A DNA stretch of 64,000 nucleotides, taken from assembly GCF_003609995.1 (NCBI RefSeq), contig NZ_AP018786.1:1994001-2058000 (forward strand), written 5' to 3'. The stretch's first letter is position 1, and every line of letters begins with the position of its first letter. This stretch comes from Sutterella megalosphaeroides (GTDB taxonomy: Bacteria > Pseudomonadota > Gammaproteobacteria > Burkholderiales > Burkholderiaceae_F). The notes under the pieces were generated by a model, which saw only the letters and a list, made by a program, of their open reading frames with translations, did no database searches and was not told the origin of the DNA. The position numbers and the translations under genes were made by a program. Of the stretch, positions 1,067 to 64,000 are shown one piece after another.

Positions 1067-1160
1067 TCAAACACCCCCGGCGCGCCCGTACGCGGGCATG
1101 CGTCACTATAGCGGATCGTGCGGGAGGGGAAAAAGCGCGGGGCGCCCGGGGCTCTCCATG

Positions 1161-1193
1161 AAAAGCCCCGACCTTCGCGCGGAAGGCCGGGGC
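1161..1193 (-). terminator. rho-independent terminator of cstA
   Basis: The minus strand reads AGCCCCGGCC, an 11-base loop, then GGTCGGGGCT followed by TTTTC. It lies about 40 bases after the cstA stop. Confidence 0.8.
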
Positions 1194-1233
1194 TGCGTCG
1201 GAGGTTATGGAATGTGAAGTTCGTGCGACGTTC

Positions 1234-2919: not shown

Positions 2920-3296
2920 ACCGAAGGCCTCCTCACAGTCGAAAGAAAAACGGGAAAAAGTGGGAAAAGCACATAGCCGACGCCCTGCAGAGCGCGTGCG
3001 TTTTTACATTATTCGCACTTTTACAAATCTCCTGCATCGGACAAACACCCTATAGCACACTGAAAACATTTGAATTTTTTCTGTTTTCCCAGATTTTCAT
3101 TTTTGCAAAATCGTCGGTTTTGCAAGTCGCACCCTCCGAATGTCGCACTTAAGACCGCGCGAGCGCAAAGGCTCTCGGGAAAAGTGCCGAGGCGCCCGTC
3201 GTGCCGCACCGATCGTCACGGGACCGTCACGCGTTTGTAATGCGACGTACGTATCCTCTTTCGTTTTCCCCTTCTGCGATTCGGTCCGCACGTCCC
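2920..3296. promoter_or_regulatory. divergent intergenic region between cstA and an MFS gene
   Basis: This AT-richer stretch separates two divergent genes and should hold both promoters. An 8-bp perfect inverted repeat, TTGCAAAA / TTTTGCAA with a 7-base spacer, lies at 3103-3125 and could be an operator. No convincing gene is seen. Confidence 0.4.
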
Positions 3297-15822: not shown

Positions 15823-16158
15823 ATGATGAAGCACATTGCGACCCTTGCCGTTGCTCTTACGCTTGCCGCAGGCAGCGCTTTTGCCGCGGACCACAGCCTC
15901 GCCGACCGTCACGTCGCGCGCGGTCTCGAATGCGCGAGCTGCCACAAGACGGCTCCCGCCCCGGGCGCCGTCGTGAAAAAGGACGCCTGCAAGACCTGCC
16001 ACAACTACGACGACCTCGCCAAGCGCACCGCGAAGCTCGAACCCAATCCGCACTACACGCACTTGGGTGACGTGAACTGCGTCGAATGCCACCGCGGTCA
16101 CCAGGCTCCGCGCCTGATGTGCAACGACTGCCACAAGTTCAACATCATGCCGAAATGA
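15823..16158 (+). CDS. periplasmic tetraheme cytochrome c, partner of the flavoprotein
   Basis: A 111-residue protein with a cleavable signal peptide (1-22) and four CxxCH heme sites: CASCH, CKTCH, CVECH and CNDCH. This corresponds to the N-terminal cytochrome domain of flavocytochrome c fumarate reductases, here as a separate polypeptide. It should pass electrons to the FAD of the upstream reductase. AGGAGA lies ahead of the start and the gap to the upstream gene is 22 bp, so cotranscription is clear. Heme attachment would rely on the ccm system encoded at the right end of the window. Confidence 0.9.
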   Translation: MMKHIATLAVALTLAAGSAFAADHSLADRHVARGLECASCHKTAPAPGAVVKKDACKTCHNYDDLAKRTAKLEPNPHYTHLGDVNCVECHRGHQAPRLMCNDCHKFNIMPK

Positions 16159-21472: not shown

Positions 21473-21889
21473 TCACTTCTTCGCGGCGGCTTCGGCCTTT
21501 TCCTTTTCGGCCGCTTCGATGAGGATGTCGGCGCGTTCGCGCAGGGTCGCTTCGTCGAGCGCACCCGTGTGGACCCAGATCGGTTCGCCGTGCACGTCGT
21601 AGAACATCTGCGTGGGCATCGAGGTGATCAGGTACTTGTCGTCGATCCCGGGATACTTGTCGATGTCGACCGTGACGAAGGCGGCGCGGTCGCCGTAGTC
21701 CTTCTGGAGCTTCTTCATGAGCGCTTCCATTTCAGGGCAGCTCGCGCACCATTCGGCGCCGAAGTCGACGACCGTGACCTTGCCCTTGACGGGGAAGGGT
21801 TCGACCCAGTCGGCGGCGAAAACGTTCGCGGAAAGACCCGCAAGGAGGGCGGCACCTGCGAGGGCGCCGATCATCTGACGACGAAACAT
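21473..21889 (-). CDS. periplasmic thioredoxin-fold protein
   Basis: A 138-residue protein with a signal peptide (1-25, ending VFAAD) and a thioredoxin fold. The redox site is WCASC (CxxC) in VVDFGAEWCASCPEME, and the cis-Pro loop is TSMPTQMF. A Lys/Glu/Ala tail ends the protein. It is the last gene of a five-gene minus-strand operon with an FtsX-like ABC exporter, a DUF4418 protein and a rhodanese, 81 bp after the ATPase gene. Its partner is unknown. Confidence 0.85.
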   Translation of the reverse strand: MFRRQMIGALAGAALLAGLSANVFAADWVEPFPVKGKVTVVDFGAEWCASCPEMEALMKKLQKDYGDRAAFVTVDIDKYPGIDDKYLITSMPTQMFYDVHGEPIWVHTGALDEATLRERADILIEAAEKEKAEAAAKK

Positions 21890-21970: not shown

Positions 21971-22660
21971 TCAGCGGGCTCGTTCCGTAAGCACCCCTTG
22001 CGCCATGTCGTAGAGGCGGTTCGAAACGTCGAGACTCGTCGAATCGTGGGTCACCATCAGGACGCCCGTCCCCGCATCGGCAAGCTTGCGGAAAATCCTC
22101 ACGACGCCTTCGGCGGACTCGGTGTCGAGGCTCGACGTGGGTTCGTCGGCGACAATGAGGCGCGGTTCGTTCATGAGCGCCCGCGCGATCGCGACGCGCC
22201 GCAGTTCACCGCCCGAGAGCGCGCTCGGGTACTGGTTCGCGAGGTCCCTGAGACCGACGGACTCCAGAAGCTCCAGCGCCCGACCTTCCGGTTCGGGCCC
22301 GTGCGACGCGAGGTACCAGGGAAGCCTCACGTTGTCGAGCACCGTGAGGGTGGAAAGAACGCCGGCCCCTTGCGGGACGTAGCCCACGGCGCGGTTGCGA
22401 AGCTCCGACGCTCCCCGGTCTTCAAGGCCTTCCAAGGGGCGGTCGACAAGGGTCACGCTCCCTTCGGTCGGGCGCAGAAGGCCCACCAAGATGTTGAGGA
22501 GCGTCGACTTACCCGAACCCGAACGCCCGAGAAGCGTCACGAGTTCGCCCGAGCGCACCGTGAGGTTCGCGTGGCGCAGCGCCCAGAAGGGGCGGCCGCC
22601 GCGTTCGTAGCGTTTGCCGACGTCGCGGGCGTCGATCAGAATCGTTTCGTTTTCGCTCAT
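21971..22660 (-). CDS. ABC transporter ATP-binding protein (LolD/MacB type)
   Basis: A 229-residue ATPase with Walker A GRSGSGKST, Q-loop VPQGAG, signature LSGGELRRVAIARAL and Walker B LIVADEPTS. It belongs to the LolD/MacB group that works with FtsX-type permeases. The start at 22660 follows GGGGAATGAG and lies one base after the permease stop, so the two are translationally linked. The longer frame to 22732 lies inside the permease gene. Its role is to power the 22662-23861 permease. Confidence 0.88.
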   Translation of the reverse strand: MSENETILIDARDVGKRYERGGRPFWALRHANLTVRSGELVTLLGRSGSGKSTLLNILVGLLRPTEGSVTLVDRPLEGLEDRGASELRNRAVGYVPQGAGVLSTLTVLDNVRLPWYLASHGPEPEGRALELLESVGLRDLANQYPSALSGGELRRVAIARALMNEPRLIVADEPTSSLDTESAEGVVRIFRKLADAGTGVLMVTHDSTSLDVSNRLYDMAQGVLTERAR

Positions 22661-22661
22661 C

Positions 22662-23861
22662 TCATTCCCCTTCGCGAAGCGACGTGTAGATGTCCTTGCG
22701 CCCGATGCGCCAGGCCGTGGGCAGGGTCGCAAGGGGGCACGTCACAAGACCCGCCACCGCAGACGTCACGACCGTCCCCCAGAAGGCGCCCGAAGCGGGC
22801 GAGAGGTAGGGTAGCCCGATCGCCTTCGCGATCGACACCGAGAAGACTTCAAGGAAAAGCCACCCGAAGAACATCCCAACCACCGTACCCGCAAGACTCA
22901 TGAGGAAGGATTCCGTCATCACGATCGAAATCACCTTCGATTTCGTCGCCCCCAGGGCACGCAACGTCGCGAATTCCTTTTGTCGCTCGTTGAACGCGAA
23001 GAAGAAAACGACGAACATCACGAGCGCGGCCACGAGCCACACGCCCGCTGCGGCGGAATACATGACGGTGACGATGTTTTGAAGTTTCGCCGACGTGTCG
23101 CTCATCATGTTGGAGGCGAAAACGAAGTTGACGTTCGCCTTGAGGCCCATGCGGTCGAGCACTTCGTCGGAAATGGAAATCGGGTCGACCCCGGGTTTGA
23201 CGCGCACGAGAATCGAGGAATAGGCCTTGTCGACCTTATTGCCCATGTCGGGCGAAGCGATGTGAGCGATCCTGCGTGCGGCCTCCATGCTCATGAAGAC
23301 CGACGAGTCGAAGCCCATGCCCGAGGGCTCCAAGCGCCCCACGATCGTGAACTTCTGGTTGTAGAACGTGATTTCCGAACCGATCTCGCCGAAGATGTAG
23401 TCGCCGACGATCACTTCGTTGCCGGTCAAGGGGCGGTCGACCGCCTTGCGAAGCCACGGCTCCACGACGAAGTCCGTCGACTGATCGATCCCGATCAGCT
23501 GCACCTTCACCGTGCAGCACTGCGCGTCCAAGGACGAAATAAAGAGCTGTCCCGAGGCTTGCGCGACGGTCGGGATGTCTTTCACGACGTCAAGGACCGA
23601 CTCGTCGATATAAAAGGTCGAGGGTTCGGCACGCAGCAGGACACTTTCCATTTTCTTCCCGGAGCCCTGCGGCACGACGAGAAGGTCCGCACCCATGCGG
23701 GCGGAAAGCGAGGAGATGCCCGATTGCAGATTCGCCGAAATCATCGAGCCCGCAAAGAGCATGAAGGCGAAAATCGCCACGACGAGCGCGAGGCTGAGCG
23801 ATCGGAAGGGTTTCTGGGCGAGGTTCGCCGAGGCGATTCGCCGGGTGGATAGAGGCAACAT
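22662..23861 (-). CDS. FtsX/MacB-type ABC transporter permease
   Basis: A 399-residue permease: one N-terminal membrane helix (about 25-45), a large periplasmic domain (45-275) and three C-terminal helices with FNERQKEFATLRALGATKS, a classic FtsX/LolE/MacB feature. The ATG at 23861 (MLPLSTRR) was chosen over 23906 for proximity to the first helix. The periplasmic domain has an adjacent cysteine pair (DAQCCTVKV), unusual for these exporters and possibly a metal or redox site given the thioredoxin in the operon. Transport direction and cargo unknown. Confidence 0.83.
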   Translation of the reverse strand: MLPLSTRRIASANLAQKPFRSLSLALVVAIFAFMLFAGSMISANLQSGISSLSARMGADLLVVPQGSGKKMESVLLRAEPSTFYIDESVLDVVKDIPTVAQASGQLFISSLDAQCCTVKVQLIGIDQSTDFVVEPWLRKAVDRPLTGNEVIVGDYIFGEIGSEITFYNQKFTIVGRLEPSGMGFDSSVFMSMEAARRIAHIASPDMGNKVDKAYSSILVRVKPGVDPISISDEVLDRMGLKANVNFVFASNMMSDTSAKLQNIVTVMYSAAAGVWLVAALVMFVVFFFAFNERQKEFATLRALGATKSKVISIVMTESFLMSLAGTVVGMFFGWLFLEVFSVSIAKAIGLPYLSPASGAFWGTVVTSAVAGLVTCPLATLPTAWRIGRKDIYTSLREGE

Positions 23862-24032
23862 GAAGGTGCGACTCCGAATATCCGGTGGGAAAACCGAGCG
23901 AGGCAAGAGACCGCGAGAATCGGGAGGGCGACCGTCGGTCGATCAACCGAACGGTTCGACCGCTCCCCCTGTTTCACAACCTCGGAAGGTCGCGCGGTCG
24001 TCGCGGGCCTTCCGAGCGTTGATCGGCGTCGA

Positions 24033-24419
24033 TCAGCGACGGCGCGAGAGTCGCCAGAAGTCCGCGAGCGCCGCAACGGCCAGAACTGCACCCGCGATCA
24101 CCAGGGCGCCTTCCGTCGTCGAGTGGCACTTCATGAGGGGATTCGGGCAGGGGCCGATCACGACCGTCGCGAGCGCGATGATGAGAAGACCCAAAACGAC
24201 GTTCGCGATCTGAAGCCCCATGGCAACGCCGCGATCCGCAAACTGCATGAGAACGCCCAGGACGGCAACGGCGCCCGCCGCCGCGGCCACGGCGTGCGTC
24301 ATCCAGACGCACTTCATGGGCGGATTGGCCGCACAGTGCGGCAACCACACGAGCGCGGCAAAGGCCGTGAGCGCACCCAGAACGAGCATGAGAAGGCCGG
24401 AGAAGAATGCGGGTTTCAT
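24033..24419 (-). CDS. DUF4418-family membrane protein
   Basis: A 128-residue protein with four predicted membrane helices. Two extracytoplasmic loops carry paired motifs PMKCVW and PLMKCH plus further cysteines (HCAAN, GPCPNP), the pattern of DUF4418 proteins. The symmetry (helix pair plus P-x-K-C loop, twice) suggests a duplicated unit. DUF4418 genes often sit with FtsX-type ABC exporters in anaerobes, as here. Start at 24419. Function unknown; the cysteines suggest a metal or redox role (inference). Confidence 0.7.
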   Translation of the reverse strand: MKPAFFSGLLMLVLGALTAFAALVWLPHCAANPPMKCVWMTHAVAAAAGAVAVLGVLMQFADRGVAMGLQIANVVLGLLIIALATVVIGPCPNPLMKCHSTTEGALVIAGAVLAVAALADFWRLSRRR

Positions 24420-24521
24420 GGGAAAAATTCCTTTTTGGTCGTAAGGGAAGAGGGGCTCGGAAAAAAGGGACGCGTCCCCCGGCACGTCCCCTTTTCGGGA
24501 AAAACTGCGGCTTCGTGCGGC

Positions 24522-24995
24522 TTACTTGTTGCGCGACGCGAGACCCGGGTCACGGCGGCCCGTGCCTTCGAATTCGTAGCCGTGCGACACCCAGCCCTGG
24601 ATGCCGTCGGGCATCACGTAGACATTTTCATAACCTTTGTCGATCACGACGAGCGAAGCCTCGAAGGAGACGTTGCACATGCGGTTGATGCAGTAGAGGA
24701 TGATGAAGGAATTCTTCTTGTCTTCGGGCAGCAACTTCGTCCAGTCTTCGATGTTCGCGTGGATGGCCCCGGGGAGATGGCTCTTCTGATAGATCTCGTC
24801 CGGGTTGCAGTCAAGGAGATACACCCCCTTCTGCCCGAGCACCTTGTGCACGCGCGCGAGCGACAGCGGAATCGGCTGGCGCATTTCCTGAACGGTCTTC
24901 CCCTTCGGGTCGATGATCTGTTCGACCGCGTGAGCGGAAAGCGCGGTGAGCGCCAGAGCACCGGCGGTCAGGACGGAAACGAGGGCTTTTTTCAT
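24522..24995 (-). CDS. periplasmic rhodanese-like protein
   Basis: A 157-residue protein with a signal peptide (1-23, ending LSAHAV) and one rhodanese domain. The active-site loop is LYCINRMCN, in which the first cysteine takes the catalytic position; the second, five residues later, is not typical. HLPGAIHANIED and NVYVMPDGIQGW are rhodanese landmarks. It is the first gene of the minus-strand operon and lies 340 bp downstream of the sulfite reductase gene, with a terminator between. A role in handling persulfide or sulfane sulfur near sulfite respiration is an inference. Confidence 0.8.
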   Translation of the reverse strand: MKKALVSVLTAGALALTALSAHAVEQIIDPKGKTVQEMRQPIPLSLARVHKVLGQKGVYLLDCNPDEIYQKSHLPGAIHANIEDWTKLLPEDKKNSFIILYCINRMCNVSFEASLVVIDKGYENVYVMPDGIQGWVSHGYEFEGTGRRDPGLASRNK

Positions 24996-25232
24996 GGGGT
25001 TCTCTCCGATGGATGGGTGGCGGTCGTGCCGACGGGGACGAGACCCGCGCGTCGGCGTCGGGCGCAAGACCCGAAAGTTAAAAGGAGCCTAGCAGGAGAA
25101 GATTAAGGCTTTGTTACCGAAAACACGTTTCGGGCATGAGGGAAAACACTGCGAAAGCCTGTTTTCCCGAACGATTCGATCGGTTTCCTCGTACGAAGAA
25201 GGCTTAAGATTTCGCGCCCTTCGGGGGCTGCG

Positions 25233-25334: not shown

Positions 25335-27302
25335 TTACTTCTTGGCGGTCTTCGTGCCGGCGTCGAGGATGGCGAGAGCCTGTTCGCAGAAGACCTTGCC
25401 TTCGTTCACAAGGGTCTTCGCGTACTTCGGACCGTGGACGCCCCACGAACCGTCATCCTTGATCTTGGCGGCGTTCTTGCGGGCCTGTTCCACATAGAGC
25501 AGAACCTGAGCGCGTTCGGCATCCGAGATCTTGGCGACTTCGAGCTTGTCCTGGATCGTCAACAGGTCGGCCGTGATCTTGGCGTAGCCTTCCTTAACGG
25601 GGGTCTGCCAAGCGATGACCTTGTTGTAGATCGTCTTCTGGTCCTTGAAGCGCATGCTTTCCGGGAACTTCGACTGGATCGGGCTGTGGCAGCCCATCGA
25701 TTCGACGAGGTAGCGGTCGGCAAACGCCGTGCGGCCGCAGCTCCACATCAGGTCGATGTAGGGACGACCGTCATCCTTCGTGAGGTTCCAACCCTTCGGG
25801 CTCGTAAGCTTGCGGTCCTTGGTACCTTCGGGAGGATTGATGGACTTCTTTTCCGGGTCGACGAGGATGCGCCACATATGGCTGCGGCGGACGTTGTCGA
25901 AGCCGGCGAGGTCCGGACGCTGGATCGCGGCGAAGTTTTCGCACGAACCCATCATCGGCATATGGCACGATTCGCAGCTGTTGCGGCTGTGGGTGCCCCC
26001 CTGAGCGAAGAATTCGGCAGCCGTCGTATGGCAATCCTGGAACTGCTTCTTCAGGTTAGGGACGGTGTAGTGAGAAGCCCAGTCGTTCGAGGTCACTTCA
26101 TGCGGGTCGTGGCAGGTCGTGCAACGCATGCCCTTCTGATAGTGCTTCGAATAGTGGGACTGCGAACCTTCGGTACCGCAAGCCGGGCAGAAGCTCTTGA
26201 AGTAGGTGTTGAACGGCGTCTTGAAGTTGTTCTTGGCATCGTCCTGGTTGTAGACGAAGCGCTGGTGGCAGCGTTCGCAATCGGACGGCATGCCCGCACC
26301 GCGAGCACCGTAAAGGTGAGCGCCGGCGCCGTGGCATTCTTCACACGAGACGCCCTTGGCGATCGTGTGCGAGCGCAACTTCTTGGCGTCGCCCAAAGCG
26401 GCGAAGAGTTCGTCCTGGCTCTTGAAGTCGAACTTCCACGTATGGCAGATTTCGCAGTAGGACGAGCCCGGCTGGAACATGGCCTGCGTGCGGTTCGACG
26501 AACCGTAGGAGTTGAAGCCCCAGACGTTGGAAGACTGAGCGCCGAAGTCTTCGAGCTTCACGGGGAAGGTCGGATCCCAGGCGTTGATCTTCTTGGCAAC
26601 TTCCGGAGTGATGTGTTCGGCCCAGTTGCGGGAGAACTGGTTGCCGCCCGCGACGATCTTGCCGGTGCCCTGGCCGAGGTTGCCGCCTTCGACGTGGTAC
26701 GTGCCGCGCACGAGCCACTTGTCGACGAAGCCGTACTTCGTGCGGGGCGTGCCCATGATGACGTAGACGTCGTCGGCTTCAATGCCTTCGGGCAGGACGG
26801 AAGCCTTCGAGTTGTAAAGGGGCTTCTTCATGTCGCCGCCGACTTCCGTGAGTTCTTCAGGGAAGCGGACGATCTTGTTGTGGCGGGAACGTTCCCACTT
26901 TTCGTACTGCGACGGATGGCATTCGCCGCACTTCTTCGGGCCCACGAAGTTGTTCGGGAGATCGAGGAAGGATTCGTACGGCAGACGATACGTCACGGCA
27001 GCCTTGCGGCCCGTGTCGTGGTGGTACTTGTCGCCACCGCCGAATTCAACCCACTCTTCGTTACGGTCGGACATCGTGAACTTACCGACGACGCGACCTT
27101 CCTTGAGGTACTTGAAATAGGGGTGGTTCGCCTTGAGGTAATCCCAGAAGGCCTTGTCCTGAGCGACATAGCCGTCGAGGGTGCGCGGAAGGTCAACCGA
27201 CGTCTGATCGGCGGCAGCCGGAGCTTCGGCGGCAAAAGCCGTCGTAGCCACAGCGGCCGACAAGCAGGCGGCCAGAGACAGAAGCTTGGAGTGCTTGGTC
27301 AT
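25335..27302 (-). CDS. mccA: octaheme sulfite reductase, MccA/SirA family
   Basis: A 655-residue periplasmic multiheme cytochrome with a signal peptide (1-25). Six standard CxxCH sites start at C125, C283, C320, C342, C394 and C443. A CX15CH motif (C522...C538-H539) is the diagnostic feature of MccA/SirA, which reduce sulfite to sulfide at a heme-copper centre. The eighth site reads FQDCH (F421, C424, H425), so it has only one cysteine and would bind heme by a single thioether. C372, C375 and C454 are extra cysteines that could serve the copper site (inference). No mccC/mccD electron-donor genes are adjacent. A putative sensor kinase lies upstream. Confidence 0.88.
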   Translation of the reverse strand: MTKHSKLLSLAACLSAAVATTAFAAEAPAAADQTSVDLPRTLDGYVAQDKAFWDYLKANHPYFKYLKEGRVVGKFTMSDRNEEWVEFGGGDKYHHDTGRKAAVTYRLPYESFLDLPNNFVGPKKCGECHPSQYEKWERSRHNKIVRFPEELTEVGGDMKKPLYNSKASVLPEGIEADDVYVIMGTPRTKYGFVDKWLVRGTYHVEGGNLGQGTGKIVAGGNQFSRNWAEHITPEVAKKINAWDPTFPVKLEDFGAQSSNVWGFNSYGSSNRTQAMFQPGSSYCEICHTWKFDFKSQDELFAALGDAKKLRSHTIAKGVSCEECHGAGAHLYGARGAGMPSDCERCHQRFVYNQDDAKNNFKTPFNTYFKSFCPACGTEGSQSHYSKHYQKGMRCTTCHDPHEVTSNDWASHYTVPNLKKQFQDCHTTAAEFFAQGGTHSRNSCESCHMPMMGSCENFAAIQRPDLAGFDNVRRSHMWRILVDPEKKSINPPEGTKDRKLTSPKGWNLTKDDGRPYIDLMWSCGRTAFADRYLVESMGCHSPIQSKFPESMRFKDQKTIYNKVIAWQTPVKEGYAKITADLLTIQDKLEVAKISDAERAQVLLYVEQARKNAAKIKDDGSWGVHGPKYAKTLVNEGKVFCEQALAILDAGTKTAKK

Positions 27303-28201: not shown

Positions 28202-30613
28202 TCAGCTCTTTCCTTCGAGGCGATCGAGCATGCGGCTGAAGCCTCTCGAATGGATGGTGACGGGGGTGTCCTCGCCCGGAGTTCGATCGGAGCGCTCGCT
28301 CGGGTGGTCGCGTTCAGCCGCGCGGTCGACTTCGGAGCGGATCTGCGCGTCGAGCATTCCGGCGGACTTGGCAGGCTTGGGGTTCCCTTCGTAGACCGTC
28401 ATCCGCGGCGGCAACATCGCGTCTTCGATCGGCTTTTCGGTTTCGCCCGGAAGCCGCGGGAACGTAATCGTAAAGCGCACGCCCGCCGTGCCGTTACGCT
28501 CCACCGTGACGCGCCCCGCATGGCGTTCCGCGATGTTGGCGACAATCGAAAGACCGAGCCCCATCCCCTTCGCACCCTTCGTCGTTTGAAGGGGCTTGAA
28601 AAAGAGGGCGAGCTGCTCGTCCGAGATGTAGGGACCGTTGTCGCCCACGGAGAGCGCCCAGGTTTTCGCGTCGCGCGCGACGAGCGACACTTCGATGCGG
28701 GGCTTCTCGACCCCGGAGATGGCATCCGCGGCGTTTTTGAGGAGATTCAGGACCGCAAGTTCGATTTCCCAGGCGTCCACCTCGGCCATCGATCCCGGAT
28801 TCACCCGCACGACGATTTCGGCGTTCGTCTGGCGCGAGCGGCGGAAGGTCGTGATCGAGTTTCCGATCACGACCGACAGATCCGTCACCGTGCGCGGGGG
28901 GTAGTCGTGCTTCGCGTAGGAACGCACGCGATCGACGATGCGGCTTGCGCGTTCGGCTTCGTTCGCGATTTCGGTAAGCGCCCAGATGAAGCTCTCTTTG
29001 TCGAACTTGTCGTTTTTCGTACGGCGGTGGAGGCTGTTCGCGTAATTCGAAATGGCCGAAAGGGGCTGCTTCAGTTCGTGCGCGATGATGGTCGACATCT
29101 GCCCCACGATCCCCGTGCGTTCGAGGTTCGCGATGTGTTGGCGCGACTGCGCGGCTTCCGCCTCGACAAGGTCGCGGTCGTGCAGCGCGTCGCGGAGCTG
29201 CTGGGTTTTGCGGCGCACCAACACCGACAAACTCACCGCGTAGGAAATGACGACGAACGTAAGGAAGATGATGAGCGCCAGAGCCTCGGAATTCTCCCGC
29301 ATGAAGCGGTGCAGGCTCCACGTCGCGAGGTGCTCGTAGGGGCCCATCTTGAGTTCGTAAAAGAGGTCGTAGATCGAGCGGTTGAGAGCGGGGAACTGCC
29401 ACTGCCCGCCGTAGCGATCGGCGTTCATCGAAAAGAGGAGCGACCCGATGTTCTTTTTCAAGAGGGGATCGGTCTTCGCGGTTGTCCCGAAGGCCCAGCC
29501 CGGGTACGTGGGGGTAGAGTGCGCGCACGCAAGACCGTCCGCGAGCTGCGGGTCGACGATCACAAGGTCGCGCTTCACGTCGACGACGCCCGCTTCCTGA
29601 AAGCGTTCGAGCGAACACGCAGGCAGAATCCCGAGCACCGCCTCGCCCGAGAGGACCGCATCCAGAACCGCGCGTTCGTCCCCGTTCGTGAAGGTCGTCC
29701 GGCGCCCCGCGGCCTGCGCCGAAAGTCCTTCGCGCTGCAGGAGCGCCAGGGGCGCGAGCCACCCGCCCAGGGACGTGCGTTCGACGGCGACGATACCGCC
29801 CTCCTTGAGGCTTTCGATCAGGTGCTGAAGGTTCTGCCGTTCGGAAACCCGACTCCCCGTCGAGGTGAAGACCGTGGCCGTGCCGTCGGACGTGACGGCA
29901 CGCTGCGTTGCGACGGTCGTCGCAGAAGTCGACCCGCCCGCGTCGTTGCGAGCGAGCATGTTCCCTTCGAGGGCGCCCTTTTTCATGAAGAGAACGCCCG
30001 CCTGCGCCTCTTCGGCGCGCAAGGCGTCGACGGGAAGGAAGGTGGCGAGCTGCTCCACAGTCGTTTTCGACTGTTGCAGCGCAAAGGTGTGCGAATTCGC
30101 GATGAAGAAGTCGATTTCCGAATTCTGAAGCGCAACCGACAAGCCGCGGCCGTCCAAGTAGAAGACCTGAACGTTCTTTTTTCCAAGCGCGTGACGAAGC
30201 GCCTCAAGCGTATAACGAATCCAGGAGGCATACTGCGTGCGACCGAGCTCCGCCTCAATCCCGATGCGAATCGGGCGACCGATCCGCATGCGCTCCGAGA
30301 TGACCGGCACGCCGACCAGGGCGTCCGCGGAAATCTTCGCGTTTTTGATCGCCTCGGGTTCCGGAATTTCCGCCATGTCGGGTCGGATCGCCGCGCGGAT
30401 GTCGCTCGACGGGGTGCCGGTCGTCGTTCCCATGCCGATGAAGGAGCTCCCCGCGGGCGGCGCGGCCGAAGGCGCGGGGGCGTGCAGGCTCAGGGCAAGC
30501 CCGAGAGCGCAGGCCAGGGCCGAAGCCCGAGCGGGTGAGCGGACGGATCGAAAAGAAAGGCGTGCGAAAGAACGGGGAAAAAAACGAACGAGGGACGTCG
30601 GGCGTATCGGCAT
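28202..30613 (-). CDS. orphan sensor histidine kinase with PhnD/TtrS-like periplasmic domain
   Basis: An 803-residue kinase of the same architecture as the one at 11444 but longer. A signal segment is followed by a long periplasmic region with two substrate-binding halves (about residues 100-420), a transmembrane helix (444-465), a coiled coil, the H-box IIAHELKQPLSAISNY with H512, the N-box NLLKNAADAI and GMGLGLSIVANIAERH. The ATG at 30613 (MPIRPTS) precedes the signal segment. A C-terminal tail of ~75 residues follows the ATPase domain. No response regulator is adjacent, so the partner must be encoded elsewhere. Position next to the sulfite reductase suggests sulfite or another sulfur oxyanion as ligand (inference). 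Confidence 0.83.
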   Translation of the reverse strand: MPIRPTSLVRFFPRSFARLSFRSVRSPARASALACALGLALSLHAPAPSAAPPAGSSFIGMGTTTGTPSSDIRAAIRPDMAEIPEPEAIKNAKISADALVGVPVISERMRIGRPIRIGIEAELGRTQYASWIRYTLEALRHALGKKNVQVFYLDGRGLSVALQNSEIDFFIANSHTFALQQSKTTVEQLATFLPVDALRAEEAQAGVLFMKKGALEGNMLARNDAGGSTSATTVATQRAVTSDGTATVFTSTGSRVSERQNLQHLIESLKEGGIVAVERTSLGGWLAPLALLQREGLSAQAAGRRTTFTNGDERAVLDAVLSGEAVLGILPACSLERFQEAGVVDVKRDLVIVDPQLADGLACAHSTPTYPGWAFGTTAKTDPLLKKNIGSLLFSMNADRYGGQWQFPALNRSIYDLFYELKMGPYEHLATWSLHRFMRENSEALALIIFLTFVVISYAVSLSVLVRRKTQQLRDALHDRDLVEAEAAQSRQHIANLERTGIVGQMSTIIAHELKQPLSAISNYANSLHRRTKNDKFDKESFIWALTEIANEAERASRIVDRVRSYAKHDYPPRTVTDLSVVIGNSITTFRRSRQTNAEIVVRVNPGSMAEVDAWEIELAVLNLLKNAADAISGVEKPRIEVSLVARDAKTWALSVGDNGPYISDEQLALFFKPLQTTKGAKGMGLGLSIVANIAERHAGRVTVERNGTAGVRFTITFPRLPGETEKPIEDAMLPPRMTVYEGNPKPAKSAGMLDAQIRSEVDRAAERDHPSERSDRTPGEDTPVTIHSRGFSRMLDRLEGKS

Positions 30614-31057
30614 GGGCGACGAGGGATTGGGTTGAGGGTTGGCTAGTTGCAATTTAATGCACCAAATCTACCGACGCGCAGAATGACTGCTACCATCTTT
30701 ATGGGATCTGCCTTCAAAGGAGGTCAATATGTACGTCGGTATTCATTACTTCATGGAACTTTACGGCGTATCGGCGAGCACGATCCGTCGATGGTGTGAC
30801 AGCGGAAAGCTTGTCGTGCATCATCGAACCTTCGGCGGTCACCGGCGCTTTGCCGTCGACGCTCCCGCCTCCGAGACCGATGAAAGAGGTATCGTCGGCT
30901 ATGCTCGGGTCTCCTCGTACGATCAAAAGTCCGACCTTGAGCGGCAGGTCGAGCGCCTCAAGCGTTCCGGCTGCGACGAGGTCCTGACCGACATCGGCTC
31001 CGGTCTAATACATGGTCAGCCCCCTGATTGCAACGAGGGCAGCAATTCACATTGGCC

Positions 31058-31335
31058 TCCGAAGGCGGGCGCAGCCCGCCATCGGGGACCAATATGTCGT
31101 GCTCGGGTACGATGCTTGCCGAGGTCAAGCGCTCGTGGAATAAAAAGCTCGTCGCGCAGCGACGAGCGGCTTTATGCCGCGAAAGGCGCTTGACGGAGTT
31201 CCTGCCGATAAGCTGCTCGCGAGACGAATGCGACGCGCGAAGCGCCGGCCGCATTCGCCTTAGCGACTAGCCATCGGCTCGTTTGACCTCAGAGCTTGTT
31301 TATCGTTTTATCGTTTTATCGTTCCTTTCTCCGTT
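31058..31335. repeat. structured repeat unit A
   Basis: Unit A begins with CCGAAGGCGGGC / GCCCGCC, then a closing helix GTCAAGCGC (31124-31132) with GCGCTTGAC (31186-31194). This encloses the hairpins CTCGTCGC/GCGACGAG and CGGC/GCCG. A second domain pairs CGAATGCG with CGCATTCG. The unit ends with a TTTATCG tandem repeat (31299-31322). Confidence 0.7.
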
Positions 31336-31346
31336 TTGAGTCTGTG

Positions 31347-31610
31347 GCCCCGAAGGCGGGCAACGCCCGCCTTCGGGGCCCATAGGCCGTGTTCGGGTAT
31401 GGTGCTTGCCGAGGTCAAGCGCTCGTGGAATAAAAAGCTCGTCGCGTAGCGGCGAGCGGCTTTATGCCGCGAAAGGCGCTTGACGGAGTTCCTGCCGATA
31501 AGCTGGTCGCGAGGCGGATGCGACGCGCGAAGCGCCGGCCGCATTCGCCTTAGCGACCCGCCATCGGCTTGTTTGACTTCGGAGAGGATTCATCGTTCCT
31601 TTCCCTGTCC
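31347..31610. repeat. structured repeat unit B
   Basis: Unit B is highly similar to unit A and keeps all its helices. Differences fall as helix-preserving wobble changes: CTCGTCGC/GCGGCGAG and CGGATGCG/CGCATTCG. It opens with a perfect 16-bp hairpin, GGCCCCGAAGGCGGGC / GCCCGCCTTCGGGGCC. Confidence 0.7.
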
Positions 31611-32028
31611 GGGGAACACCAGTGAGGTGTCCGGCTCACGGCCGGGCGGGGGCTGACCATTTCATTATTGCCGGAAGCCCGGCCTCAACACGTTGCTCGG
31701 GCGCTTGCTCTCCGGGCGGGTTGGCGTTCTCCGCGTCGTCCATGAGGACCGCCTGTTGCGATTCGGCACGGAGCTGATACGTCGCATCTGTCGCCACGAG
31801 CGCACGAGCTTCGAGGTGATGGAAGAGCGACCCGCGATGTCGTTCGAAGCGGAGCTCGCCAAGGACGTCATCACGTTGATGACGGTGTTCTGCGCTCGGC
31901 TCTACGGTCGCCGAAGTCATCACAACAAGGAGGTTGCAGGCGACGCTGCGGGACCTCCTACCGGACCCCCACACCCCCCGCACAAAAGTGCTATCGTGGG
32001 TGCTCCATGATTGTGTGGACACCTCATA

Positions 32029-33732
32029 ATGAAACCCGATTTCCCAAACTACGTCTACCTGAAAGAATCTCGCGTCAAGGAGCTCTGCGTCAACGAGGCG
32101 CCCGCCTACCACGTCGGTACCCGAGCGGTGGATATGGAGCACCTCGACCCGGAAGACGAGGCTGTGTTGATCGAGCTGCTTCTTCGATGGAACAAGCAGG
32201 TGAACGTCTTCGTTCAAAAGTTTGAGTCCTCGGAGTGGCGACTGTTCGTAATCGGGAACGGTTATCGGAAGCTTCGCGACGCTTTGGTGGCCGGGAAAAA
32301 TCCGACCTCGTATTTCGGACTTCAGGGGCGGCAGTGGAAGGTGGCCCTGCAATTTGCAAGCTCCGTGCAAAGCAACCGCTGGCGGCTGGCGCAAACCAAC
32401 GCTCTGAAGTCGATCAAGAAAGGATCGAGATGGGTTGCGTTGAGCAAGGACGCTCAGAAATTTGTTCGTCGCATGCTCAACAGTCTGAGCATCGACTTCT
32501 TTGACCTGATGGACGGGAAAACTCCCAATCTTTCGGATCGTGAAAAAGGTATCCCGGACATTGAAAAACTGTGCGCATGGGGGCGACATAAAGTCCAAGA
32601 CTGTCTGGGGAAAATCCCGGAGGTGTCTCCGACTTTGATTCGTTTTGATTCCGACTCGTTCAAACTTGAAGAAGAGGACGGACGTCAGTATCTGTCGTTG
32701 ATGAGCCTTACGCCGGGAAAGCGCATCAAGCTTCCCATTTTGGGATATGTTCCCGCTCGAAAAATCGACGGCAAAAACAAGCTCTCCACAATTTCCGTCA
32801 TTAAGACTCATGGCACTTGGAAAGTAGAATTCCAGTATTCGCTTAAAAAACCGGACGGAAGCCTTCGAATCAAGCCGTTGCTCCTGCCCGATGCTTATCG
32901 TTTGAAGGACGGTTTCGCCGTCACTCGCGCATTGGATTTTGGATTGACAGAGCCCCTCACGACCCATGACGGGATTCGCTTCGGCGCTCATGAAAGCCGG
33001 CCCGACCTCGGGAAGCGCTCGAACGGCCGCACCTTGGAGATTCCGGGGCTCGGCGAACTGATCGAGCGGTATGCGCAATATCTCGACCGGAAACAGGCCG
33101 AGCGCAACCGATTCGAAGCGATGGTCCGCGATCCCGATACGGACAAGAAGAAAAAGAAGCACATCAAGAAGAACAACCTGGGATCGAAGCGGTACGAAGC
33201 GGAAATCTGTCGACTCAAGGCGGCTATCGTATGTTGCATCAACAGGGCTATAAACAATTTGTTCGCCCGGTGTCCCGCCAATGTTTACGTCATCGAGTGC
33301 CTCTCCGAAGTGTTTGATTTGAAAGGAATCTCAAAAAAGGTGCGCAGCAAACTTTCGAAGTGGTGTCGCGGAATAATTCGTGCACGACTGTACTATAAGG
33401 CTGCGAAGCGAGGCATAAGAATTGTCGAGGTTGCCGCAGCTTACTCGTCGCAACAATGTCCGATTTGCGGACACGTGGACCGAAACAATCGACACGGGGA
33501 CAAGTTCCACTGTAAGGCGTGCGGCTACATCGGGGATTCCGATCAGGTTGGGGCGCTGAATTGCCTGAAAAGGGCGGAATCGCCAAAGTACGAACGATTC
33601 ATGTCGACAGAGGAGGTTCGCAAGCTTTGTCGGGAGGAGTATCTCTCATACTGTAAGGCTCATAACATTGCCCCCTTGCCCGAAGCCAGACCCAAACCTA
33701 AAACCAAACCACGAAGTCGGCCAAGGTGCTAA
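32029..33732 (+). CDS. tnpB: TnpB, RNA-guided RuvC nuclease (long form)
   Basis: A 567-residue TnpB, the RNA-guided DNA nuclease of IS605/IS607 elements and ancestor of Cas12. The RuvC residues are intact: D303 in RALDFGLTEP, E423 in VYVIECLSEV, and D505 in GDSDQVGALNC, just after a zinc ribbon CPIC...CKAC. The protein is considerably longer than typical ~400-residue TnpBs; extra length is in the N-terminal half plus a Pro/Lys-rich tail after the RuvC domain. The ATG at 32029 was chosen over a TTG at 32011. The partner tnpA is broken, yet tnpB is uninterrupted. Confidence 0.88.
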   Translation: MKPDFPNYVYLKESRVKELCVNEAPAYHVGTRAVDMEHLDPEDEAVLIELLLRWNKQVNVFVQKFESSEWRLFVIGNGYRKLRDALVAGKNPTSYFGLQGRQWKVALQFASSVQSNRWRLAQTNALKSIKKGSRWVALSKDAQKFVRRMLNSLSIDFFDLMDGKTPNLSDREKGIPDIEKLCAWGRHKVQDCLGKIPEVSPTLIRFDSDSFKLEEEDGRQYLSLMSLTPGKRIKLPILGYVPARKIDGKNKLSTISVIKTHGTWKVEFQYSLKKPDGSLRIKPLLLPDAYRLKDGFAVTRALDFGLTEPLTTHDGIRFGAHESRPDLGKRSNGRTLEIPGLGELIERYAQYLDRKQAERNRFEAMVRDPDTDKKKKKHIKKNNLGSKRYEAEICRLKAAIVCCINRAINNLFARCPANVYVIECLSEVFDLKGISKKVRSKLSKWCRGIIRARLYYKAAKRGIRIVEVAAAYSSQQCPICGHVDRNNRHGDKFHCKACGYIGDSDQVGALNCLKRAESPKYERFMSTEEVRKLCREEYLSYCKAHNIAPLPEARPKPKTKPRSRPRC

Positions 33733-59453: not shown

Positions 59454-59945
59454 TTACTCCTTGCGACCCGAAAGCAAATCGGAAGCGAGCGCCTGCTCCT
59501 CTTTGGAGAGGGGCTTGACGGCTTCTTCGACGAGACGCTTGCGACGGCGAAGATTGACATAGAACGCACCGACGCCGATCACGAAAAGCGCGAGCGGGCC
59601 GAGCCAGAGGATGGCGGTCGTCATCTTGAAGGGGGGCTTGTAGAGCACGAAGTCCCCGTAACGCTCGACCATGAAGTCGATGATTTCCTTGTTGGTCTTG
59701 CCGGCCTTCACCTGCTCGATCACCTGGTTGCGAAGGTCGACCGCGAGTTCCGCGTTCGATTCCGCAATCGACTGGTTCTGGCAAACGAGGCACCGGAGCT
59801 GTTCGGACACTTCGACGACGCGCTGATGCGCGATCGGGTCGAAGGCCGTCGGCTCGGCTTCGGCGGCGGCGACGCTCCCCGCGGAGAGCGCCGCAACGGC
59901 AGCCATGAGGGCGCCCGCGAAAACGTGCTTCAGACTCGTCATCAT
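59454..59945 (-). CDS. ccmH: cytochrome c maturation protein CcmH
   Basis: A 163-residue CcmH. A signal peptide is followed by a CcmH domain with the redox pair LRCLVCQNQSI, then a membrane helix (about 105-125) and a short basic tail. CcmH reduces or resolves apocytochrome thiols before heme attachment. Its start overlaps the stop of ccmG by four bases. Confidence 0.92.
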   Translation of the reverse strand: MMTSLKHVFAGALMAAVAALSAGSVAAAEAEPTAFDPIAHQRVVEVSEQLRCLVCQNQSIAESNAELAVDLRNQVIEQVKAGKTNKEIIDFMVERYGDFVLYKPPFKMTTAILWLGPLALFVIGVGAFYVNLRRRKRLVEEAVKPLSKEEQALASDLLSGRKE

Positions 59946-60475
59946 TCGGCCTCCAGCTTTTCGATGAGGGGCTTCACGTCCTTGTTCCAGTTGTCATCAA
60001 GGATCGGATAGCTCACCTTGGCGCGCACGAAACCCTTCTTGTCGATGATGAAGGTTTCGGGAACGCCCGTGACCCCGAGGTCGATGCCGACCTTGTTGTC
60101 GCGGTCGTAGAGAACGAGGTCGTAGGGGTTGCCCATCGAGCGGAGTTCGGCCTGGGCGGCACCCGGCTGATCGCGGTAGAGGAGCCCGACGATCGGGGTC
60201 TTAAGACCCTGACGCTTGAGGGCGACGAGGTACGGGTGCTCTTGCTTACAGGGCGCGCACCAGGTCGACCAGACGTTGAGCATCCAGACCTTGCCCTTCA
60301 TCGATTCGGAGGAGAAGGTCTGCTCCGGTTCGAAAAGGGTCGGCAGAACGAACTGCGGCAGGGGCTTGTCCTGATAGGCCGTCGGAAGCATCTTCGGGTC
60401 CATGTAGAGGCCCTTGAAGAGGAACCCCGCCAGGAGCAGGAAGACGGCAAACGGAATGAGAAATTTGGCTTTCAT
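59942..60475 (-). CDS. ccmG: thioredoxin-like CcmG/DsbE
   Basis: A 177-residue membrane-anchored thioredoxin with a signal anchor (6-24), the active site WCAPC in NVWSTWCAPCKQEHP and the GVTGVPETFII cis-Pro loop. It keeps apocytochrome cysteines reduced. It is 39 bp after ccmF. Confidence 0.92.
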   Translation of the reverse strand: MKAKFLIPFAVFLLLAGFLFKGLYMDPKMLPTAYQDKPLPQFVLPTLFEPEQTFSSESMKGKVWMLNVWSTWCAPCKQEHPYLVALKRQGLKTPIVGLLYRDQPGAAQAELRSMGNPYDLVLYDRDNKVGIDLGVTGVPETFIIDKKGFVRAKVSYPILDDNWNKDVKPLIEKLEAE

Positions 60476-60514
60476 GTGTCAGTCCTTTTTTCGGGTCTCG
60501 GTTGCGTTCGCCCG

Positions 60515-62476
60515 TCAAACCGCGGCGTGCGCCGCGGCCTTCGTCGAACGACGGCGGTAACGTCGGTCGAGCATGGCGATGAAACCGCCGAGCGCCATGA
60601 AGATGGCACCGAACCAAATCCAGGTGACGTAAGGCTTCGAGTAGGCGCGCACGACCCAGCCGCCGTCCGTGGTCGGGACGCCGAGCGAGACGTACACGTC
60701 GCCCGTGATCGAGTGGCGGATGGCGGCTTCCGTCATCGGCATCGAGTTCGAGCTGAAGTACTTGCGCTTTTCCGGGTGCAGCTCGGCGATCACCTTGCCG
60801 TCCTTCGAGAGCGTGAAGTTGCCGCGGTCGGCCGAGTAGTTGTGGCCGCGGGCGCTTTCAACGCCGTTGAAGGTGAAGACGTAACCGTCGACGGTCACGG
60901 TGTCCCCTTCAAACATGCGCACGTCGCGTTCGGACTGATAGCCCTTCACGAGCGCCACGCCGATGATGAAGACCGCAACGCCCACGTGAGCAAGGTGCAT
61001 GCCCCAGTAGCTGCGCGGCTGACGCGCGAGCTTCGCGAAGAAGTTGCCCGGAGCGTGACGGATCTGACCGCGCACGTCTTCGATCGCACCGAAAACGACG
61101 AGGAACGCAAGCGTACAGCCGACGAAACACCACGTGCCCCATTCGCCCATAAGGAGCGGAACGGCGGCGCCGCAGGCAACGGCCAGCACGAAGCACCAGA
61201 TCATGCGCTTTGCGAGCACCTTCGGGTCCTGTTCCTTCCAACGCGCCATCGGGCCCATCGACATGAGGAAGACCATCGGGAGCATCAGGGGACCGAAGAC
61301 GGCGTCGAAGTACGGGGGCCCGACCGAGATCTTCCCGGCGTTCAACGCATCGAGGAAGAGCGGATAAAGGGTCCCCAAGAGCACCGCGCCCATCGCCACG
61401 ACGAGAAGCACGTTGTTGACAAGGAGCATCGATTCACGCGAGATGAGGCCGAAGTTCCCGCCGAGGCCCACCGTCGGGGCGCGCCAGGCAAAGAGGAGGA
61501 ACGACAACCCGATCACGACGATGAGGAACGCGAGAATGAAGAGGCCGCGCTCCGGATCGGTCGCAAAAGCGTGCACCGAGGTGAGTACGCCCGAGCGAAC
61601 GAGGAAGGTGCCGAGAAGCGACAGGGAGAAGGTGAGGATCGCAAGAAGCACCGTCCAAATGCGGAAGCACCCGCGCTTTTCCGTAACCGCCAGGCTGTGA
61701 ATGAGGGCGGTACCCGTCAGCCACGGCATGAAGGAGGAGTTTTCAACGGGGTCCCAGAACCACCAGCCGCCCCAGCCGAGTTCGTAGTACGCCCAGTAGG
61801 AGCCGAGCGCGATGCCGAGGGTGAGCAGAATCCACGCAGCCGTCGTCCAGGGACGCATCCAGCGGGCCCACGCCGCGTCGAGGCGCCCGGAGAGGAGCGC
61901 GGCGATCGCGAACGCAAACGGAACCGCAAAGCCCACGTAGCCGAGGTAGAGAAGCGGCGGATGGAAGACCATCCCCGGGTCCTGCAGGAGGGGATTGAGG
62001 TCGGCCCCTTCGGCGGGCGCCGGGAAAAGACGCAGGAAGGGGTTGGAGGTGAGAAGCATGAAGAGGAGGAACCCCATGCCGACGAGGCCCATCACGCCCG
62101 TCACGCGCGCGACCATGTCCGCGGGCAGGCGCTTGGCGGTAAAGGCCACGGCCGCGCTCCACCAACCGAGCGTCACGGTCCAAAAGAGAATCGAGCCTTC
62201 GTGCGAGCCCCAGGTCGCGGCCACCTTGTAGTACCACGGGAGCATCGAGTTGGAGTTGTTCGCCACATTGAGGACCGTGAAGTCCGAGATGTAGAACGAA
62301 TACGCCAGACAGGCGAAAGCGATCGTGCCGAAAAGCGCGTTGGCCGCCGCGGCCGGGCGCGCGACCGCCATGAGCGCGCGGTTGCCCCGCGCGGCCCCGA
62401 TGAGCGGCAACACGCCCTGAACGATGCTCAACGCAAGGCACAGGATGAGTGCGAAGTGTCCGAGCTCAGGAATCAC
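60515..62476 (-). CDS. ccmF: heme lyase subunit CcmF
   Basis: A 653-residue CcmF with about 15 membrane helices. The heme-handling WWD motif is GWGGWWFWDPVENSSF. CcmF and CcmH attach heme to apocytochrome CxxCH sites. The start is a GTG at 62476 with GGAG nine bases upstream. Whether this CcmF also handles the unusual CX15CH and FxxCH sites of the sulfite reductase is unknown; a dedicated lyase is not seen in the window. Confidence 0.93.
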   Translation of the reverse strand: MIPELGHFALILCLALSIVQGVLPLIGAARGNRALMAVARPAAAANALFGTIAFACLAYSFYISDFTVLNVANNSNSMLPWYYKVAATWGSHEGSILFWTVTLGWWSAAVAFTAKRLPADMVARVTGVMGLVGMGFLLFMLLTSNPFLRLFPAPAEGADLNPLLQDPGMVFHPPLLYLGYVGFAVPFAFAIAALLSGRLDAAWARWMRPWTTAAWILLTLGIALGSYWAYYELGWGGWWFWDPVENSSFMPWLTGTALIHSLAVTEKRGCFRIWTVLLAILTFSLSLLGTFLVRSGVLTSVHAFATDPERGLFILAFLIVVIGLSFLLFAWRAPTVGLGGNFGLISRESMLLVNNVLLVVAMGAVLLGTLYPLFLDALNAGKISVGPPYFDAVFGPLMLPMVFLMSMGPMARWKEQDPKVLAKRMIWCFVLAVACGAAVPLLMGEWGTWCFVGCTLAFLVVFGAIEDVRGQIRHAPGNFFAKLARQPRSYWGMHLAHVGVAVFIIGVALVKGYQSERDVRMFEGDTVTVDGYVFTFNGVESARGHNYSADRGNFTLSKDGKVIAELHPEKRKYFSSNSMPMTEAAIRHSITGDVYVSLGVPTTDGGWVVRAYSKPYVTWIWFGAIFMALGGFIAMLDRRYRRRSTKAAAHAAV

Positions 62477-62592
62477 TTGTGTTATCTCCGGTTGAAGTAA
62501 TGGGGAAAGGAGGCTCCGGAAGGGCCCCGATTCTCACGGTTGGAAATCGTTGTCGGATTCGAATCGAATGGAAGCGCTCCCGCTTCACGCAC

Positions 62593-62632
62593 CGAACCCC
62601 CGGGCATTTTCAAAAACGCCCCGGGGGTTTCG
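62593..62632. repeat. hairpin between ccmE and ccmF
   Basis: CCCCCGGG and CCCGGGGG flank a 14-base loop, extended by CGAA/TTCG. No T-tract follows on the minus strand, so it is more likely a processing or stability signal than a terminator. Confidence 0.5.
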
Positions 62633-62683
62633 GGTTTGGGTGTGAAGCGCGTTCGCGTCCGCCCTCTTCGTTCTTGGCGAACC

Positions 62684-63175
62684 TTACGGGTGATTGGCGG
62701 GCATGGGCTTGCCCGCGGCAATCGCCTCGTCGTGCGCCTTCTTGACGCCCGCCTTGTGAGCGTCTTCGAGGGCCTGCGCGGCTTCGGGCGGCATGTAGTT
62801 TTCGTCGTGCTTCGCGAGCACTTCGCTTGCCGTGAAGACGCCCGCTTCGTCGAGCTTCCCTTGAGCGACGACGCCCTGGCCTTCGCTGAAGAGGTCGGGG
62901 AGAATCCCCGTGTAGCGAACGGGCACGGTCTGCGCGGTGTCGGTCACGCGGAATTCCACGGTGACGCCGTCCGCCTGACGCACGACGCTGCCCGGTTCCA
63001 CGACGCCCCCGAGGCGGAACGTACGGCCCGTGGGCGCTTCCTTCGCCGCCACCTGGGTGGGCGAGAAGAAGAAGACGAGGTTTTCGTTGAAGGCCTGAAG
63101 GCCCATGAAGATGCCGGCGCCCACAACGACGACGGCCGCACCGATCAGAGCGAACTTTTTCGACTTGGCGTTCAT
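62684..63175 (-). CDS. ccmE: heme chaperone CcmE
   Basis: A 163-residue CcmE. It has an N-terminal membrane anchor, an OB-fold with FRLGGVVEPGSV, and the heme-binding histidine in AKHDENYMPPE. CcmE carries heme from CcmC to CcmF. It starts 11 bp after ccmD. A 207-bp gap with a hairpin separates it from ccmF. Confidence 0.93.
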   Translation of the reverse strand: MNAKSKKFALIGAAVVVVGAGIFMGLQAFNENLVFFFSPTQVAAKEAPTGRTFRLGGVVEPGSVVRQADGVTVEFRVTDTAQTVPVRYTGILPDLFSEGQGVVAQGKLDEAGVFTASEVLAKHDENYMPPEAAQALEDAHKAGVKKAHDEAIAAGKPMPANHP

Positions 63176-63186
63176 GAGGGGTCTCC

Positions 63187-63372
63187 TTAGATTTCAAGGG
63201 TCGACTTGGCGGCCCGCGCTTCGCGGGCGAGACGGGCGCAAATCTTGCGACGGCGCGCGACGAGCGTCCAGAGTTCGTAAATCACACCCGCGGTAAGCGC
63301 CCCGTAGGAGCACCAGACGTAGTAGCCGTGCCCGCCCATGGTGATGAATTCGGAAAGAGAGGTCCAGTTCAC
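63187..63372 (-). CDS. ccmD: CcmD, small membrane subunit of heme export
   Basis: A 61-residue protein with one membrane helix (about 11-35) after GGHGYYVWCSYG, the typical CcmD start, and a basic tail. The GTG at 63372 overlaps the ccmC stop as GTGA. It helps release holo-CcmE from CcmABC. Too short to be called on homology alone, but gene order confirms it. Confidence 0.85.
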   Translation of the reverse strand: MNWTSLSEFITMGGHGYYVWCSYGALTAGVIYELWTLVARRRKICARLAREARAAKSTLEI

Positions 63373-64000
63373 AGTTTGCCCTCCAAAGCGGCCTTCTGAG
63401 CCCATGCCTGACGGCGTTCGCGTTCGAGAATGATGGTGCGGGTGCGCGAGAGCACCACGCCCGCGCCGTAGCACATGCCCGCAGCCACCATGATGAGAAG
63501 CGTGTAGAGCATGATTTCGGCCATCGAGGTGCTGCGCGACGTGATCGACGCGCCCTGGTGGAGGGTGTTCCACCAACGCACCGAGAAGTAGATGATCGGT
63601 ACGTTCACGACGCCCACGATCGAGATGACGCTCGCGGCGCGGTCGGCGCGACGCTTGTCGTCAATCGCGGAATGGAGCGCGATGAAGCCGAGGTAGAGGA
63701 AAAAGAGAATCAGCATCGAGGTGAGACGCGCGTCCCACACCCAGTACGTGCCCCAGGTAGGACGACCCCAGAAGGCGCCCGAAAAGAGCGCGATGAAGCC
63801 CATGAGGGCGCCCGTCGGGGCCATCGCCTGCGCGACGATGAAGGCGAGCGTGTTGTTCTTCCAGAGGCCGATCAGGCTGAAGACCGCCATCAGCACGTAG
63901 AGGAACATGGAAAGCCATGCGGCCGAGACGTGAATGAAGATGATGCGGTAGGAGTTCCCTTGACGGGCTTCGATCGGGCACTCGAAAAAGCCCATGTAAA
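63369..64000 (-). CDS. ccmC: CcmC, heme-handling membrane protein (5' end missing)
   Basis: At least 210 residues. The WWD domain is WGRPTWGTYWVWDARLTS, and the histidine-containing motif IIFIHVSAAWLS precedes it. The reading frame is open to the right edge, and the sequence before the internal ATG at 63995 aligns with the interior of CcmC, so the true start lies outside the window. CcmC loads heme onto CcmE. ccmA and ccmB are expected further right. Confidence 0.92.
   Translation of the reverse strand, partial: YMGFFECPIEARQGNSYRIIFIHVSAAWLSMFLYVLMAVFSLIGLWKNNTLAFIVAQAMAPTGALMGFIALFSGAFWGRPTWGTYWVWDARLTSMLILFFLYLGFIALHSAIDDKRRADRAASVISIVGVVNVPIIYFSVRWWNTLHQGASITSRSTSMAEIMLYTLLIMVAAGMCYGAGVVLSRTRTIILERERRQAWAQKAALEGKL

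Follow-up and report, generated by a model that had tools for sequence, protein, structure and literature searches.

Phenylalanine replaces the leading cysteine of heme motif 6 in one of two MccA-type sulfite reductases of Sutterella megalosphaeroides: most likely a recent mutation private to one copy, or an error in the sequence

RESULTS

An operon-borne mccA gene with an incomplete heme motif 6

The window, by which we mean the whole stretch of 64,000 nucleotides analyzed here (contig NZ_AP018786.1 of Sutterella megalosphaeroides, positions 1,994,001 to 2,058,000), carries a gene of the mccA (sirA) type within a row of genes, together with genes for heme maturation. The features are listed below in window coordinates, all on the minus strand.

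28202..30652 (-): sensor kinase with a phosphonate-binding-type sensor domain, upstream of mccA
25335..27302 (-): mccA (sirA type), octaheme sulfite reductase, operon copy, Cys421 to Phe, 655 aa
26916..26930 (-): heme motif 1, CGECH, residues 125-129
26442..26456 (-): heme motif 2, CEICH, residues 283-287
26331..26345 (-): heme motif 3, CEECH, residues 320-324
26265..26279 (-): heme motif 4, CERCH, residues 342-346
26178..26180 (-): Cys375, putative copper ligand, opposite the Cys of PGCGSEG in 4rkm (phmmer alignment)
26109..26123 (-): heme motif 5, CTTCH, residues 394-398
26028..26042 (-): heme motif 6, FQDCH, residues 421-425, without the first Cys (alignment to homologues)
25962..25976 (-): heme motif 7, CESCH, residues 443-447
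25941..25943 (-): Cys454 of SCENF, second putative copper ligand (alignment to 4rkm)
25686..25739 (-): heme motif 8, CX15CH, residues 522-539
24522..25067 (-): rhodanese-domain gene, next downstream of mccA, 268 bases apart
24033..24485 (-): DUF4418 gene of the mccA gene row
22662..23906 (-): FtsX/MacB-type ABC permease gene of the row
21971..22732 (-): ABC transporter ATPase gene of the row
21473..21889 (-): thioredoxin-domain gene of the row
59454..63995 (-): System I genes encoding CcmH, a redoxin (ccmG by position), CcmF, CcmE and a PF01578 protein (ccmC by position)

The mccA ORF begins with ATG and runs unbroken through 655 codons. The earlier note on this DNA had described an intact frame with six CxxCH motifs, a CX15CH motif and FQDCH at residues 421-425, all of which we recovered in the 655-aa translation. 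Its assignment of the protein to MccA/SirA agrees with a full-length match in a phmmer search against solved structures, in which MccA of Wolinella succinogenes (4rkm/4rkn; 648.6 bits, E 1.2e-193) was the sole distinct sequence at E ≤ 0.001 and the 4rkm_A match spanned query residues 41-646. The two proteins share the order of the seven short motifs and the CX15CH motif, and both retain the two putative copper-ligand cysteines: Cys375 and Cys454 align with C399 and C495, which we take to be the copper ligands of the W. succinogenes enzyme, and the 96-residue spacing of C399 and C495 is consistent with the 4rkm row. They differ at motif 6, where FQDCH stands opposite CTDCH of 4rkm; the pairing upholds the view that FQDCH is a true heme site without its first Cys. 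Codon 421 is TTC (26040-26042, minus strand), and Cys424 and His425 are kept. Screened for the features of the family, the protein thus has the CX15CH-type long motif (residues 522-539) and six complete CxxCH motifs instead of seven, the seventh short motif being FQDCH. We conclude from the sequence that it is a member of the MccA/SirA family of octaheme sulfite reductases, which departs by one residue from an otherwise complete member. Because of the order of the motifs, we infer that heme 6 of MccA matches heme 3 of NrfA and is an electron-transfer heme.

Phe421 is found in no other homologue aligned

From 92 aligned rows we retained 78 distinct full-length proteins, the window protein counted in, after removal of L001 (the duplicate of the window protein), of rows exceeding 60 gaps across the 613 core columns and of rows identical over the core. 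This alignment answers the call of the earlier note to compare residue 421 among homologues: each of the other 77 proteins has Cys in this column, Phe is shared by none, and partial MccA rows spanning motif 6 likewise have Cys there. Over the seven short motifs of the 78 proteins, the Cys/Cys/His residues are canonical at 1637 of 1638 positions, the exception being Phe421. None of the 77 contains a single-cysteine site, which is thus not conserved among orthologues, and no lineage with such a site at motif 6 appears among the MccA proteins aligned. Since the column is Cys in every other distinct full-length homologue, we regard Phe421 as more than a chance observation; since all other motif residues are canonical, it is not a trait of Sutterella, nor does it mark a single-cysteine site that is conserved. 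Elsewhere, the window protein has no further private change in 155 columns that are invariant or invariant but for one.

An mccA-related match was present in 12 of 12 genus genomes (E 0.001), the sole match in one of them (G003) being a short relative of the C-terminal half, and in 26 of 67 family genomes (E 1e-60). Among the genus mates are S. massiliensis and S. wadsworthensis. When named genomes were scanned with two peptide patterns, neither of them within motif 6, the best 80 of 88 stretches encoding a relative yielded 79 distinct loci; these include loci from Sutterella, Parasutterella, Turicimonas, Duodenibacillus, Shewanella, Edwardsiella, Campylobacter, Helicobacter and Acidobacteriota. 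All fetched genus copies covering motif 6, except the window copy, have Cys, and so does the second copy in the same genome, which argues against the lineage-specific loss that the earlier note had considered. SirA proteins of other Shewanella species can be aligned with the window protein along their full length, and the full-length rows have Cys at column 421, in contrast to Phe in the window MccA. SirA of S. oneidensis itself is described as having seven CXXCH motifs and CX12NKGCH (excerpt of PMC6976685).

Some variation was seen in other parts of the family. In 13 of the 92 aligned rows (L053, L054, L056, L059, L061, L064, L066, L068, L069, L070, L071, L072 and L077, from Campylobacter, Campylobacteraceae, Helicobacter and Mucispirillum records), CX17CH replaces CX15CH. 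Four short genus proteins align with MccA in its C-terminal half alone; these tetraheme relatives have three CxxCH motifs and one long motif, which is CX16CH in L012, L017 and L018 and CX15CH in L019. The mccA of genome G006 (L008) has one internal TAA.

The changed copy lies in a conserved gene row

The row of sensor kinase, mccA, rhodanese, DUF4418, FtsX permease, ABC ATPase and thioredoxin genes recurs in S. massiliensis (L045) and S. wadsworthensis (L043); in L041 and L047 it is conserved starting at mccA, the contigs stopping just upstream of that gene. It is therefore the copy with Phe421 that sits in the conserved operon, and the intact copy (L013) that stands alone: none of the neighbor genes of the window copy found a match within 19.5 kb around L013 (E 1e-8). 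The sensor kinase has TtrS as its best NCBIfam match, under the cut-off of that model. A rhodanese gene also follows mccA in other Sutterellaceae and at Shewanella, Edwardsiella, Campylobacter and Helicobacter loci; for some Holophagaceae loci (L057, L060, L063) it had no match among those listed.

Directly upstream of the sensor kinase, resolvase-like and TnpB-like ORFs were recognized by eye (window 30729-33732), and in S. massiliensis L045 the kinase lies at most 0.5 kb from an ORF whose window counterpart starts at about 34350. The window also encodes, at 15823-16158, a small tetraheme cytochrome c3-like protein of 111 aa with four CxxCH motifs. We considered that the stand-alone mccA copies of the host and of S. 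massiliensis occupy one locus and rejected this: in a blastn comparison of L040 and L044 (E 1e-10), nothing matched besides mccA. About 6 kb from the stand-alone mccA, L040 holds a gene resembling aryl-sulfate sulfotransferase genes by eye (913-3012), which matches, at 68.7% over 610 bases of DNA, a stretch of L045 that lies about 5.4 kb past the operon mccA there.

An intact second mccA in the same genome

The host genome, a single contig of 2,725,161 bases that is 96.27% complete, has a second full-length mccA (L013, G000:C1:866911-868833), 96% identical to the window copy. A pattern from the CX15CH region, allowing up to three mismatches, hit exactly two sites in the genome, namely, the two mccA copies. 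L013 reads CQDCH, with all eight heme motifs complete, and its codon TGC is one base from the TTC of the window, in line with the one-base change by which the earlier note had explained Phe. The paralogue thus differs from the window copy in having Cys at 421, in its location outside the operon and in its signal peptide.

Over 616 codons from residue 38 onward, the copies differ at 48 synonymous and 15 nonsynonymous codons (dN 0.012, dS 0.14, dN/dS about 0.09). When these differences were polarized with seven other genus genes, 2 of the 15 nonsynonymous codons fell on the window branch, 2 on the paralogue branch and 11 on neither; those of the window branch are C421F and K650T, of which K650T affects a variable site. 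Apart from Phe421, the window mccA is thus well preserved. Its first 37 codons are 75% identical to those of the S. massiliensis operon copy (L002) and 46% identical to those of L013; from codon 38 on, identity is 87% to L002 and 96% to L013 (the signal-peptide identities rest on the window copy, L013, L002, L003 and L004, with L014, L005, L006 and L007 left out). The simplest account of this pattern is that the mature part of mccA has been homogenized within the genome, which would mean that an intact template is available. As a test of gene conversion at exactly site 421, the DNA comparison is weak: the differences between the copies are spaced more unevenly than random (variance P 0.003), and the longest identical run is ordinary (P 0.11).

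Heme lyases of the host

The heme lyases that we recognized in the genome are of the System I type. In addition to the genes in the window, a second set at about 1.58 Mb (L120 5238-9991) encodes CcmF, CcmH, a CcmI-like TPR protein and a PPIC-type isomerase. Its CcmF/CcmH/CcmI-like proteins resemble the SirEFG lyase of Shewanella, the isomerase presumably resembles MccB, and the set is possibly a lyase dedicated to the long heme motif. A fourth PF01578 protein (L039, frame L121 5327-6511), which adjoins a gene that looks ffh-like by eye, is presumably akin to YpjD. ResB of System II was not found in the host genome, with 5 of 14 control genomes positive; the eukaryotic-type synthase (PF01265) had no match in the host either, yet neither did it match in any of the 14 controls.

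DISCUSSION

Phe421 most likely reflects a recent mutation private to this copy, or a sequencing error, and not a new kind of heme site. The reading that we favor, with a probability of roughly 0.6, is a recent private missense change, after which heme 6 of the window copy is probably bound poorly or not at all and the intact paralogue covers the function. An ordinary operon-borne Sutterella mccA would have undergone one base substitution, TGC to TTC, which is confined to this copy and cost it the first Cys of heme motif 6. The System I lyases would then probably leave the FQDCH site without covalent heme or fill it poorly, and the window copy would yield less, or unstable, enzyme, with the stand-alone paralogue performing sulfite reduction. 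The organism need not rely on the window copy because it has a second MccA, and L013 could also overwrite the Phe421 change through gene conversion. However, the low dN/dS in both copies suggests that each has been useful; losing one should therefore have a cost, which counts against this explanation.

It is unlikely, albeit a serious contender, that the T arose in base calling or assembly and that both copies in fact have TGC and an ordinary heme site 6. Such an error would fit a lone deviating base at a Cys that is invariant in all other proteins, when the conserved columns show nothing else private to the window protein; on the other hand, the reading frame is unbroken and the genome is a single, 96.27% complete contig. 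Moreover, the paralogue has G at this position, so mixed reads of the two copies cannot yield T.

The earlier note had proposed an enzyme with one heme held by a single thioether, and we consider a working heme 6 of this sort, matured via Cys424 and His425 alone with activity kept, improbable. Both residues are intact and the remainder of the protein is conserved. Such hemes do exist: in an excerpt of PMC8262978, the single-thioether cytochromes of Euglenozoa are described as functional, with FAPCH as the motif of cytochrome c1, and further systems of single-thioether attachment, Systems IV to VI, are named in the accessible text of PMC3884852. As in the window MccA, it is the first motif Cys that is replaced in the Euglenozoa cytochromes c (AAQCH) and c1 (FAPCH). 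In those organisms, however, the lineage has conserved the single-cysteine motif and a divergent synthase acts on it, as shown for trypanosome cytochrome c, whereas in the window it is private to one gene copy, is shared by 0 of 77 homologues and meets System I lyases, with ResB not found.

Published work bears on what such lyases do with a single cysteine. According to the title of Allen et al. 2002, cited in PMC3420020, E. coli System I reportedly gave no detectable heme attachment to single-cysteine variants, and the excerpt of PMC8262978 states that the AxxCH cytochrome c of T. brucei is no substrate for minimally expressed E. coli Ccm. In vitro, a peptide in its serine variants received no heme from CcsBA, whereas human HCCS formed a single thioether (excerpt of PMC8112865). 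In S. oneidensis, proper maturation of SirA is said to require both the Ccm and the Sir systems, and SirA with an altered long motif was undetectable (PMC6976685, in part). In the open-access papers searched on single-thioether or single-cysteine cytochromes and on MccA, the titles and abstract openings mention no MccA with such a site. Given the System I lyases of the host and these single-cysteine results, we infer that the FQDCH site is more likely empty or poorly filled than occupied by a one-thioether heme. The stronger proposal that Phe421 is real and fixed in the species and that System I lyases attach heme 6 via Cys424 alone strikes us as very improbable; were it so, the second CcmF/CcmH/CcmI-like set might perhaps perform the attachment.

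Hardly credible is a selected, heme-6-less operon copy with altered electron flow, the stand-alone copy doing the reduction. That dN/dS is low in both copies and that their signal peptides differ would fit a division of this kind, but the window branch takes just 2 of the 15 nonsynonymous codons (11 of 15 being ambiguous), and none of the relatives shares its state at residue 421. Finally, a complete motif elsewhere in the protein, which the earlier note had named as a possible refutation, is ruled out by the alignments with 4rkm and the 77 homologues, which place the motif at residue 421; a Sutterella-wide trait is ruled out by Cys in the other fetched genus copies that cover the site, and general gene decay by the dN/dS of about 0.09 together with the intact frame.

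The case is a warning that, when a cysteine is missing from a cytochrome in one genome, an intact paralogue and relatives should be checked before a new heme site is claimed. If Phe421 is real and the enzyme matures, System I would be able to mature a natural protein through one cysteine alone, contradicting the result reported for E. coli Ccm. A heme held by Cys424 only, if true, would mean that a multiheme respiratory enzyme of a bacterium naturally contains a single-thioether heme, with the intact paralogue as a control.
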